NCBI RefSeq assembly: GCF_013184805.1
Contig: NZ_JAATNG010000001.1
Location: 1,860,001 to 1,924,000 of the forward strand
Direction of reading: 5' to 3'
Length of the DNA: 64,000 bases
Source: Pseudoruegeria sp. HB172150
Lineage (GTDB): Bacteria; Pseudomonadota; Alphaproteobacteria; Rhodobacterales; Rhodobacteraceae
The notes beneath the pieces are model-generated. The model was not told where the DNA came from. It did not search any database and worked only from the letters and a program-made list of their open reading frames with translations. A program made the position numbers and the translations under genes. Positions 1,852-42,274 of the stretch are shown here, piece by piece (the stretch's first letter is position 1; every line of letters starts with the position of its first letter).

Positions 1852-6233
<4,382 letters not shown>

Positions 6234-6261
6234 CTCGACTGAGCCACTTTTGTTCGCGAAT

Positions 6262-6282
6262 GTTCCTAAAAAGTTCTTTACA
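6262..6282 (+). promoter_or_regulatory. LexA-type SOS box with abutting -35-like hexamer
   Basis: GTTC-CTAAAAA-GTTC at 6262-6276 is an exact match to the alphaproteobacterial LexA box GTTC-N7-GTTC, established in Rhodobacter and relatives. A further GTTC lies at 6252-6255 but with the wrong spacing (N6). Directly after the box, TTTACA at 6277-6282 is one base off the -35 consensus; no convincing -10 is seen at the usual distance. The box lies between the recG stop and the small ORF at 6334, so LexA would repress that ORF. The match is read directly; regulation is inferred. Confidence 0.65.
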
Positions 6283-6333
6283 GTTTGGCGCGAATTTGAG
6301 AACAAAGAGGCAACAACACTATGGAGGTTCCCG

Positions 6334-6450
6334 ATGCTGGCCGATCTGAAAAACGTCTTGTCCCGCTCTTCGATGACGATTCTGCAGGATTTCGTGGGTG
6401 GTGCCGCGCTTATCGTGATGCTGGTCGCCGTTCTGAACCTGCCTGTCTGA
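6334..6450 (+). CDS. 38-residue single-span membrane peptide, possibly SOS-controlled
   Basis: This short reading frame encodes 38 residues: a polar, basic N-terminus (MLADLKNVLSRSS), then a hydrophobic segment from about residue 21 to the end (GGAALIVMLVAVLNL) that could cross the membrane once. The ATG at 6334 has a strong ribosome site, GGAGG at 6323-6327, at 6 bases spacing. A LexA-type box lies 58 bases upstream and a strong terminator ends at 6622. The frame is open further upstream to 6250, but that would place the start ahead of the ribosome site and inside the LexA region. I do not recognise a named family. Its layout recalls small SOS-induced inner-membrane proteins such as Caulobacter SidA, a comparison of architecture only. 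Confidence 0.7.
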   Translation: MLADLKNVLSRSSMTILQDFVGGAALIVMLVAVLNLPV

Positions 6451-6584
6451 GTTTCTGCCTGCGTCCTGTCATCGGCCGGTTCCTGCGCCTTGTCCCCTAC
6501 TTTCGCGCAAGCCGTTGTCCTGTCTGGCTCGGGGCTCGCCTCATTGCCCCGGCTCCGGCCAACCGCATGATCAGACGCTTCCTG

Positions 6585-6622
6585 CCGCCGCCTCCTTGTC
6601 CCGGGAGTGCGGCGGTTTTTTT
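6585..6622 (+). terminator. rho-independent terminator
   Basis: CCGCCGC at 6585-6591 pairs with GCGGCGG at 6609-6615, and CTCC at 6592-6595 pairs with GGAG at 6604-6607 with one bulged T. Seven T follow at 6616-6622. It ends the transcript carrying the 38-residue peptide, leaving a 3' untranslated part of about 135 bases, and separates it from the converging NifU-like gene. Confidence 0.9.
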
Positions 6623-6641
6623 GCGCGAGTGATGGGAGAGG

Positions 6642-13832: not shown

Positions 13833-13877
13833 GTGCCTTTGGCCTTTTTGCTCAAGCGCTATATCTTGTTGTGGGTA

Positions 13878-13907
13878 AGTATACCCTACCGTTCATATGG
13901 GGTTCAA
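13878..13907 (-). promoter_or_regulatory. gyrA: probable gyrA promoter
   Basis: On the minus strand TTGAAC (13902-13907) and TATACT (13878-13883) are spaced by 18 bases, 46 bases before the gyrA GTG. Both hexamers are one or two bases from the housekeeping consensus. No other pair of this quality was seen in the 191 bases between gyrA and usg. Confidence 0.6.
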
Positions 13908-39365: not shown

Positions 39366-40727
39366 TTACCAGCGACGCTCGAACCGGCGACGCAGTATAA
39401 TGGCGATGATGTTCATGGTCATAAGGAACAGGAGCAGCACGATGATACCGCCCCAGGCGCGTTCGTAATAGGCCGGGTCGGCGCGCTTGGCCCATTCGTA
39501 GATCTGGGCGGGCATGGCCGAATTCGGCGCCAGGAAGCCATCGACGATCCCTTCGGGGTAGTTGGTGGCGATGTAGCCGACCATCCCGATCAGCAGCAGC
39601 GGCGCGGTTTCACCGAGCGCCTGCGCAAGGCCGATGATGGTACCGGTCAGGATGCCGGGCATGGCCAGGGGCAGCACGTGGTGGAACACGGCCTGGGTTT
39701 TCGAGGCCCCTACCCCCAGCGCGGCGTCGCGGATCGACGGCGGCACCGCCTTGAGCGACGCGCGGGTCGAGATGATGATCGTCGGCAGGGTCATCAGAGT
39801 CAGGACGAGGCCACCCACGAGCGGCGCCGATTGCGGCAGGCCGCCGAACTGGATGAACACCGCCAGACCGAGGATACCGAAGACGATCGACGGGACGGCC
39901 GCGAGGTTCGAGATGTTCACCTCGATCAGGTCGGTGAACCGGTTCTTCGCCGCGAACTCCTCGAGATAGATGGAAGCCGCGACGCCGATGGGCAGCGCCA
40001 GGACAAGGACCACGATCATCATGAAGAACGACCCAATCATAGAAACCCCGATGCCGGCCTGTTCCGGGCGGCTTTCCGACGCGTCGGCGCCGGTGATGAA
40101 GGCCCAGTTGAAGGTACGTTCGACTGCTCCCGCGTCTACCAGTTGGTCGACGATGTCAAGGTGCGCAGCGTCGAGGTTCTTGTCACGCTCGAGGTCCTCG
40201 CGCTGCACCCTGCCCTTCATGTAACCGTCGACGCGGCTAGAGGCGAGAACGCGGAACGTGACGGTTTCCCCAACCTGGTCCGGATTGGCGAGCGTATAAT
40301 CCCGGACCTGAGCCGGAACGGACGACGATAGCATCTTGCGCAGCGTCGGCCCATCCATGTCGGTTTCGATACCGTTGTCGGCCATGAGCTGAACCAGCGC
40401 ATCCTCGATCAACGGGTTGTAGCCGAAGGTCGACACCTTGCTCATCGCCGCCGGATCGCGGTTGCCGTCGGGATCGAGTTTTTCCTCGTTCAGGTAGATC
40501 GGCAGCTCGACGAACGTCTGCGTAAAGGCCGGAATGCCGTTGCGGACGATCGAGACCAGCAGGATTACCAGGAACGCCAGACCGACACAGACAGCGGCGA
40601 TCCCGTATGCCTTGAACCGGGCTTCGGCGGCATTGCGGCGCTTGGTACGCTTGTCCAGCGCGTAGAGCGACGAGCCACGAGACTTTTCCGGTCCCGACGG
40701 AACGGGTGTATTTGTCACGTCGGTCAT
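39366..40727 (-). CDS. pstA: phosphate ABC transporter permease PstA (long form)
   Basis: The C-terminal half (about residues 210-453) is a normal permease with six spans and the cytoplasmic EAA-type loop (DAALGVGASKTQAVFHHVLPLAMPGILTG). The N-terminal half is an extension typical of alphaproteobacterial PstA: a cytoplasmic segment rich in basic residues, one span (IAAVCVGLAFLVILLVSIV) and a periplasmic domain of about 150 residues. It is 453 residues, against 296 in E. coli. It overlaps pstC by 4 bases. Confidence 0.94.
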   Translation of the reverse strand: MTDVTNTPVPSGPEKSRGSSLYALDKRTKRRNAAEARFKAYGIAAVCVGLAFLVILLVSIVRNGIPAFTQTFVELPIYLNEEKLDPDGNRDPAAMSKVSTFGYNPLIEDALVQLMADNGIETDMDGPTLRKMLSSSVPAQVRDYTLANPDQVGETVTFRVLASSRVDGYMKGRVQREDLERDKNLDAAHLDIVDQLVDAGAVERTFNWAFITGADASESRPEQAGIGVSMIGSFFMMIVVLVLALPIGVAASIYLEEFAAKNRFTDLIEVNISNLAAVPSIVFGILGLAVFIQFGGLPQSAPLVGGLVLTLMTLPTIIISTRASLKAVPPSIRDAALGVGASKTQAVFHHVLPLAMPGILTGTIIGLAQALGETAPLLLIGMVGYIATNYPEGIVDGFLAPNSAMPAQIYEWAKRADPAYYERAWGGIIVLLLFLMTMNIIAIILRRRFERRW

Positions 40728-42187
40728 TCGTATTGCTCCCGGTATTTGCGCACGATGTAGAGTGCGAGAATGTTGAGGCCGAGGGTGATGACGAAGAGGG
40801 TCATGCCCAGGGCGAAGGCGACGAGCGCTTCGGGCGAGGAGAAGTCCGCGTCGCCGGTCAGCTGGCTGACGATCTTCGCGGTAACGGTGGTCATCGCCTC
40901 GAACGGGTTGAGCGAGAGCCTTGCCGCGGCCCCTGCCCCCATCACCACGATCATGGTTTCACCGATGGCCCGCGAGGCCGCCAGCAGCACGGCACCGACG
41001 ATGCCGGGCAGAGCAGCCGGCAGGACCACCTGTTTGACCGTCTCGGAATGGGTGGCGCCAAGGCCAAGCGAGCCGTCGCGCATCGCCTGCGGCACCGCGT
41101 TGATGATGTCGTCCGACAGTGAGCTGACGAAGGGGATCAGCATGATGCCCATGACAAGGCCCGCGGTCATGACCGAGGAAGCCGCACCCATCCAGCCCAC
41201 GCTGTTCGGTCCGAAGACCGACAGCAGCAGCGGACCAACGGTCAGCAGCGCGAAAAGGCCGTAGACGATGGTCGGGATGCCGGCCAGCACCTCGATCAGC
41301 GGCTTCGCGAAGGCGCGGATCCTCGGTGTCGCATATTCCGACAGGTAGACCGCCGCGAAGAGACCGATCGGCACCGCGACCACCAGAGCGATGAACGAGA
41401 TGTAGAGGGTGCCCCAGAGCAGAGGGATGATGCCGAGTTCCGATCCGCCACCGAAGCTCGGCGCCCAGGTGGTGCCGAAGAAGAAATCCCATGCGGGGTA
41501 GCGGTAAAAGAACTCGATCGTGTTGAAGATCAGCGAGAGGATGATGCCGACCGTTGTCAGAATGGCGATGGAGGCCGCGCCGATCAGCAGGTATCTGATC
41601 GACGTTTCCACGACATTCCGGGCACGGAAATCCTTGTGGGTGCGCATCAGGGCGAAGAGGAAACCGCCAAGCGCGATGGCAAGCACCACGATGGCCATCA
41701 ACAAGGCGCCAGTGGCAGACATCGTCCGGTAAAGCTGCGCCGCGCGGAGCGTGGAGGAGCCGACGTCCGAACCGAGGGCAACGCCGACCCCGGCGAGGCG
41801 GTCACGGACGTCCGTGAATTCCGTACGGATGCTCGAGGCGTAGTCTTCGGTCATTGCACCGCCTGCGACGGCAATGTCGAGCCCGTTCGCGACGCGGCGC
41901 ACGTCCGACATCACGAGTCCCAGTGTGCTTCCTTCCGGGATCGCCTCGGCCGGGATCGTCCCGGAAACCCGGTTCTCGATCACCAGGGGCTGAACAATCA
42001 GCCAGATTATCAGGACGAGCAGCGAGAAGACCGTCGTGAAGATGGCAACGCTGGTTCCGTAGTAGTTCGGGAGAGAGTGCAGTTTGCGGCTGTCGCCGCC
42101 GGCGCTTGCAATCGCCCTGTACCGTCCCATGAAATAGCCGATGACGGCCAGCGCCAAGATGATCGCGACGATCCAAAGCACGGGCAT
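40724..42187 (-). CDS. pstC: phosphate ABC transporter permease PstC (long form)
   Basis: The C-terminal part carries the permease spans and the EAA loop (DGSLGLGATHSETVKQVVLPAALPGIVGA). The N-terminal half has two extra spans (VLWIVAIILALAVIGYFMG and IFTTVFSLLVLIIWLIVQPLVI) and a periplasmic domain, as in PstA. From ATG at 42187, with GGGGGAAG upstream, it is 487 residues; an in-frame start at 42223 is less well supported. It follows pstS by 87 bases, which include the pstS 3' flank. Confidence 0.94.
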   Translation of the reverse strand: MPVLWIVAIILALAVIGYFMGRYRAIASAGGDSRKLHSLPNYYGTSVAIFTTVFSLLVLIIWLIVQPLVIENRVSGTIPAEAIPEGSTLGLVMSDVRRVANGLDIAVAGGAMTEDYASSIRTEFTDVRDRLAGVGVALGSDVGSSTLRAAQLYRTMSATGALLMAIVVLAIALGGFLFALMRTHKDFRARNVVETSIRYLLIGAASIAILTTVGIILSLIFNTIEFFYRYPAWDFFFGTTWAPSFGGGSELGIIPLLWGTLYISFIALVVAVPIGLFAAVYLSEYATPRIRAFAKPLIEVLAGIPTIVYGLFALLTVGPLLLSVFGPNSVGWMGAASSVMTAGLVMGIMLIPFVSSLSDDIINAVPQAMRDGSLGLGATHSETVKQVVLPAALPGIVGAVLLAASRAIGETMIVVMGAGAAARLSLNPFEAMTTVTAKIVSQLTGDADFSSPEALVAFALGMTLFVITLGLNILALYIVRKYREQYE

Positions 42188-42274
42188 GTGCGCTTCCCCC
42201 AGGGATTTCGTCAGATGTTTCAATTGAGCAGAGGCGGCACAAATGGCCGCCTCTGACGTTTGGCCGAGGCCTGA

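Follow-up and report, generated by a model that had tools for sequence, protein, structure and literature searches.

A one-gene unit behind recG

This study concerns a short gene behind recG in a 64,000-nucleotide stretch of the genome of Pseudoruegeria sp. HB172150 (contig NZ_JAATNG010000001.1, positions 1,860,001 to 1,924,000), referred to here as the window. Read from the sequence, positions 6252-6622 form a compact one-gene unit, 3' of recG, with a predicted LexA operator, a frame for a 38-residue predicted membrane peptide and a terminator. The features are listed below in window coordinates; counts of loci refer to the Rhodobacteraceae set described in the next section.

4143-6233, plus strand: recG, 696 residues; same-strand neighbour upstream, conserved but outside the unit, found at 133 of 139 loci
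6252-6255, plus strand: third GTTC half-site, with N6 spacing to the next GTTC
6262-6276, plus strand: predicted LexA operator GTTC-N7-GTTC, GTTCCTAAAAAGTTC; exact match, kept in 135 of 138 loci
6277-6282, plus strand: -35-like TTTACA abutting the operator; each base conserved in 96 or more of the 135 boxed loci
6296-6303, plus strand: -10-like TTGAGAAC, conserved in the promoter alignment
6300-6314, minus strand: near-consensus second LexA box GAAC-AAAGAGG-CAAC over the -10 region, resembling GAACAAGAGGCGAAC of recA
6323-6327, plus strand: Shine-Dalgarno sequence GGAGG; a similar site in 134 of 138 loci
6334-6450, plus strand: 38-residue predicted single-pass membrane peptide, MLADLKNVLSRSSMTILQDFVGGAALIVMLVAVLNLPV; ATG at 6334, stop ending at 6450
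6585-6622, plus strand: intrinsic terminator, hairpin plus T-run; a terminator is kept at 122 of 138 loci

The original prediction, made from this sequence, had named an exact GTTC-N7-GTTC, a -35-like TTTACA abutting it, a GGAGG ribosome site, a 38-codon frame with one hydrophobic span, and a strong terminator. All of these elements are present at the positions given, the single span being a prediction, and the ribosome site and terminator also have counterparts in relatives. Of the eight positions of GCTANAWC, the -10 consensus of Caulobacter, the -10-like TTGAGAAC fits five. The hairpin at 6585-6622 has a folding energy of -22.9 kcal/mol (z -2.74), and 3 of 200 shuffled sequences were equally good. 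It was not in the output of a simple terminator scan, whose sole site (1.4 expected by chance) was at 6221-6243, where recG ends. Behind the unit in the window lies an iscU-like gene on the opposite strand, convergent with it.

Two longer reads of the same DNA, one of 66 residues from the TTG at 6250 and one of 103 residues from the ATG at 6321, were rejected because conservation tracks the 38-residue frame, beginning at its ATG or close by. The out-of-frame 103-residue read (6321-6632) overlaps the peptide, and a gene caller could choose it, hiding the real gene.

Distribution of the peptide family

A search with the single sequence matched the peptide in 139 of 198 Rhodobacteraceae genomes, nearly all of different genera. 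One of these loci (L109) gave no tblastn match to the peptide and was dropped, leaving 138. A profile built from 84 members (alignment A1) and used at E <= 0.001 found the peptide in 171 of the 198 genomes, with a single match in 169 of them and two matches in G105 and G187. Thirty-two genomes were matched by the profile only, and loci were taken from 13 of these. In the 27 profile-negative genomes recG was sought; its 3' end was readable in 21, and in the other six the gene was absent, truncated or not located. At 13 of the 21 readable loci (L154-L158, L160, L161, L164, L165 and L169-L172), the same place holds a LexA box, on one strand or the other, together with a short frame whose C-terminal half was judged by eye to be hydrophobic. 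The distance from the recG stop to the peptide ATG has a median of 109 nucleotides (range 47-312, n=132).

The family appears to be confined to Rhodobacteraceae in the sample searched. A class-wide profile search of 289 sampled genomes gave four convincing matches, all in Rhodobacteraceae. At E values up to 0.01, eight genomes matched; four are the Rhodobacteraceae, and the other four matches (E 0.0016-0.0065) are pieces of open frames of 234-401 residues and were not accepted as homologues. Behind recG outside Rhodobacteraceae, no exact LexA box was found in 28 loci (the best 28 of 55 matching genomes), where exact boxes alone were sought up to 420 nucleotides downstream (261 nucleotides in L213). 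Pfam, NCBIfam and PHROGs gave no convincing family; the weak matches were scattered, involved one or two members each, and had best E values of 0.0053, 0.0063 and 0.0089, respectively. PDB sequences gave no match to the peptide. Conservation outside the species had been set beforehand as a test of the prediction, and both peptide and box are conserved across the Rhodobacteraceae genomes examined. Judged by sequence, the 38-residue frame is thus a member of a conserved, unnamed protein family.

One copy differs in form. At L138 (genome G157, 80% complete, no lexA match), the peptide lacks a LexA box and its frame runs past the usual stop to 75 residues, possibly through decay after loss of LexA.

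Coding evidence and protein features

The peptide has 40 residues in 109 of the 138 copies. Column, charge and substitution statistics were taken from 108 of the 138, leaving out L100 (CTG start), L135 (TTG start) and members of other lengths; conservation bins used 106 members, for which the box was also required. Among 24 pairs with at least 70% identity, the median proportions of synonymous (pS) and nonsynonymous (pN) differences were 0.64 and 0.19, with a pN/pS of 0.30, and codon position 3 was the most variable. A Shine-Dalgarno-like site lies at -16 to -4 in 134 of 138 loci; in a control stretch only 27 of the 138 have one. Within 250 nucleotides after the frame, a perfect stem with a T-run occurs in 122 of 138 loci, against 1.0 in single-base shuffles. 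The leader and the region 3' of the stop show low conservation. By these sequence measures, selection on the peptide is purifying.

The consensus of alignment A1 is M....K....RS..TL..D..GA.AL.V.L...LHLP. D19 and G22 never vary, whether in A1 or among the 108 members of forty residues; in A1, M1, L26 and L34 reach at least 90%, and P37 is found in 100 of the 108. No charged residue occurs at positions 21-40 in 107 of the 108, and the basic residues sit toward the N-terminus. By the positive-inside rule the basic end of a membrane protein stays on the cytoplasmic side, and the N-terminus is therefore expected inside. The N-terminal part is amphipathic, with a moment of 1.30 compared with 0.73 (standard deviation 0.03) for shuffled sequences. 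Conservation of residues 19-37 falls on one helix face (permutation p 0.009). AlphaFold2 places helices at residues 2-11 and 13-34 with a mean predicted local distance difference test score of 86.8, and the peptide is predicted to be a single membrane-spanning helix. A generic membrane-damaging peptide looks less likely, because the span is free of charge in nearly every member and its conservation is concentrated on one face.

Operator and promoter conservation

GTTC-N7-GTTC is the LexA motif of alphaproteobacteria (PMC3323433, PMC8565304; papers are cited here by PubMed Central number). The exact box occurs three times in the window against 2.2 expected, and 34 of 100 shuffles reach three; the box alone was rejected as evidence because this count is near chance. 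In the whole genome there are 199 matches, compared with 62 for the reversed pattern. What raises the box above chance is its conservation in related loci: an exact GTTC-N7-GTTC lies within 220 nucleotides upstream of the peptide in 135 of the 138 aligned loci, whereas CTTG controls with spacings of 3-11 were found in none or one. GAAC-N7-GAAC occurred upstream in 7 of 138 loci, but as a possible LexA site in its own right it is an impure control. The first base of the nearest box lies 66-115 nucleotides before the start codon (median 78). The forward box was also found in 12 of the 13 loci known from the profile alone, which lie outside the profile set.

A third half-site belongs to this arrangement in most relatives, with an exact GTTC-N6-GTTC-N7-GTTC in 116 of the 135 boxed loci. 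In the window, GTTC-N6-GTTC (6252-6265) makes a ten-base step. The triple has one other occurrence in the host genome. After the three boxless loci (L116, L124, L138) had been left out, the promoter alignment gave the consensus tttGTTCnCaaATGTTCTcAaAAAGTTCTTTACa, a variable stretch, and then aataTGAGAACAAAgnggCAACAaa, where capitals mark bases above 80% and lower case those above 50%. When named genomes were scanned for the triple box followed by TTTACA, at least 117 stretches matched, and 80 of them were taken as loci. Among these 80 the peptide lies 50-200 nucleotides downstream in 77; of the three exceptions, the match in L286 is 56 bases from the end of the locus, too close for a peptide to show, and L240 and L246, titled Flavobacteriia, have no peptide. 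The titles among the matches listed include Roseobacter, Sulfitobacter, Roseovarius, Celeribacter, Thioclava, Rhodovulum and Gemmobacter.

The reversed near-box GAAC-N7-CAAC is present in 116 of 138 loci; of the 13 diverged loci, seven (L154, L155, L156, L164, L165, L169 and L170) have the complete form GAAC-N7-GAAC. The near-box may be a full second operator, but it overlaps the -10-like site.

The two other exact boxes in the window stand apart from the unit. The one at 13891-13905 lies ahead of a gyrA-like gene on the minus strand (start 13832) and just inside the start of a possible plus-strand frame at 13871; it could be a gyrA LexA site or chance. The one at 42054-42068 lies inside a pstC-like frame, named by eye (40724-42223, minus strand), and is probably chance. 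Elsewhere in the host genome, a cluster of GGAAC repeats (L140, about 1439-1540; contig C1 near 1718400) is flanked by open frames that by eye resemble a primase/helicase and a serine recombinase. The repeats might mark the origin of a mobile element or, alternatively, a LexA-type promoter.

LexA in the host and the family

The host genome has one lexA match and one recA match. Its lexA is preceded by GAAC-N7-GAAC-N7-GAAC and its recA by GAAC-N7-GAAC. A lexA match was found in 185 of the 198 Rhodobacteraceae genomes (182 above the cut-off). Thirty lexA loci were examined, three of which (L344, L347, L368) were unscored as the script did not locate the start; a LexA box was present in all 27 scored promoters. 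With an operator over its promoter and LexA boxes before the host lexA and recA, the unit apparently belongs to the alphaproteobacterial LexA (SOS) regulon.

Thirteen genomes had no lexA match: five without a profile match to the peptide, one (G157, L138) with the boxless copy in a longer frame, and seven with both peptide and box. In one of the five, G033, a box accompanies a diverged frame (L170). The absence of lexA and the absence of the unit weakly go together, with a Fisher p of 0.019 by profile match (in all genomes and also in the better ones), or, when diverged forms are counted as present, of 0.008 in all genomes and 0.009 in the readable ones; the evidence is weak, as the genomes are related to one another and several are incomplete. 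Many lexA-negative genomes that keep the unit are incomplete assemblies, but not all are: G069 has a completeness of 100.

Comparison with known systems

SidA of Caulobacter is a LexA-controlled protein of 29 residues that targets FtsW (PMC4211646). The present peptide resembles it as a tiny, apparently LexA-controlled alphaproteobacterial protein of the inner membrane with one span, here a predicted one. It differs in being longer, mostly 40 residues, and in being conserved across a whole family at a fixed place behind recG. The likeness is one of description; the class-wide profile search, with no convincing match outside Rhodobacteraceae, has low power for so short a protein. SidA, DidA and YneA indicate that small membrane proteins induced by damage can stop division at FtsW or FtsN (PMC4211646, PMC13396833). 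YneA, SosA, ChiZ and DidA share with the peptide a small size, a membrane location and a link to damage, and act on late division proteins (PMC13396833, PMC4211646). YneA carries a LysM domain, whereas the peptide is predicted to have almost nothing past the membrane on the far side; DidA is not LexA-controlled.

A catalogue of predicted LexA targets exists for Dinoroseobacter shibae (PMC6473078), in the main text of which the term recG is absent. No title or abstract opening describing the peptide was found in literature searches that mostly did not cover subscription journals; nor did they yield a named SOS division inhibitor for Rhodobacteraceae. The SulA domain (PF03846) matched neither the peptide nor any of the 84 alignment members. 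In the family, SulA was found above the cut-off in none of the 198 genomes, and the one match below it contains two in-frame stops.

Proposed mechanism and rival explanations

That this is an independent gene for a LexA-controlled small membrane protein, placed after recG, is supported at the sequence level by the family-wide conservation of box, peptide, ribosome site and terminator. In sequence terms the gene is conserved with these elements, is under purifying selection, and has a predicted single span. LexA binding, induction, membrane insertion, a partner and division arrest are the steps that we infer from it. LexA would sit on GTTC-N7-GTTC, aided by the third GTTC and perhaps by GAAC-N7-CAAC; in this position it would cover the -35 and -10 elements and keep the gene silent. 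Upon DNA damage, RecA would trigger self-cleavage of LexA, and a short monocistronic mRNA ending at the conserved terminator would be made and translated into a protein of about 40 residues. The basic amphipathic N-terminal helix would remain on the cytoplasmic face while one uncharged helix crosses the inner membrane, leaving a tail of a few residues. Such a product would be too small to hold an enzyme or a periplasmic domain and should therefore act through helix-helix contact. Its conserved face (D19, G22, A/S25, L26, G/A33, L34 and P37) would dock on a membrane partner, most likely the late divisome or a septal wall synthase (FtsW/FtsI/FtsN), and division would be held until repair is complete, as by SidA in Caulobacter.

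We rank such a SidA-like division checkpoint, exerted by a LexA-repressed one-gene unit through a membrane partner, first among the possible functions and give it slightly better than even chances, since SulA was not found and damage-induced small membrane proteins are known to act on FtsW and FtsN. Regulation of a partner outside the divisome during DNA damage, such as a transporter, a respiratory complex, a protease or an envelope sensor, comes second and is a possible but clearly less probable role. Many small membrane proteins are subunits or modulators of membrane complexes of such kinds, and the conserved helix face and very short tail would suit binding to any membrane protein; the conserved SOS boxes in the promoter, and the vacancy for a division role left in a family where SulA was not found, speak weakly against it. 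A toxin like TisB, which would insert into the inner membrane, lower the membrane potential and make cells dormant, is ranked third and appears unlikely. TisB is a LexA-controlled membrane toxin with a charged amphipathic helix, and the two would share the LexA control, the small hydrophobic peptide and the membrane span. The peptide, however, carries no charge in residues 21-40 in all but one of the 108 members, and it has a conserved face, a fixed chromosomal place behind recG and a single match in nearly every matched genome, unlike type I toxins; the poorly conserved leader and 3' region give no sign of a conserved antisense target.

Two further explanations seem very improbable. The conserved unit might be an SOS-induced small RNA with an incidental frame, as the short predicted transcript and strong terminator would allow; this reading was rejected, given the low pN/pS, the variability of codon position 3, the conserved Shine-Dalgarno-like site, and the weak conservation of DNA beyond frame and promoter. 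Equally hard to credit is a LexA site that serves another gene, whether recG or the iscU-like gene that follows the unit. The recG of some alphaproteobacteria is apparently LexA-regulated (PMC3323433), a statement that we read as referring to a site before recG and not behind it. The box described here lies behind recG at a short distance from the peptide start, in a unit with its own -35-like element, Shine-Dalgarno-like site and terminator, and the iscU-like gene is convergent, on the other strand.

Several observations weigh against the checkpoint or its control by LexA. The link to division is drawn by analogy and from the absence of SulA. Box and peptide are both lacking behind recG in 8 of the 21 readable profile-negative loci (L152, L153, L159, L162, L163 and L166-L168); three of these are in lexA-negative genomes (G195, G167, G008) and five in lexA-bearing ones, so LexA-bearing members can live without the unit. 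Conversely, the peptide and an exact box persist in 7 of the 13 lexA-negative genomes, and an eighth has a box beside a diverged frame (L170). We know of no LexA precedent for the N6 half-site spacing, and the overlap of GAAC-N7-CAAC with the -10-like site means that its conservation may reflect the promoter rather than an operator. As for the helix face, residues 19-37 were one of three ranges tried, and 19-34 gave a p of 0.036.

In its fullest form, the proposal is of a previously unnamed peptide, inherited vertically and present in nearly all Rhodobacteraceae, that would act as an SOS checkpoint and fill the place of SulA or SidA. It would be kept silent by an unusual composite LexA operator, with three GTTC half-sites before the -35 element and a reversed near-box over the -10, and would stop division purely through a transmembrane-helix face (D19, G22, A/S25, G/A33, L34) docking on the septal synthase. 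We hold this complete version tentatively, at somewhat under even chances.

Significance

With no SulA above the cut-off in 198 genomes and no named SOS inhibitor found in the literature, the hold on division in damaged Rhodobacteraceae looks unexplained, and the peptide described here is a promising candidate for that role. A gene so small is easily overlooked by gene callers. Within a large family of ecological importance, the peptide nevertheless seems to be steadily retained in the SOS regulon. One short gene may thus offer a handle on the question of how division is held, and its large natural alignment indicates which helix face matters.
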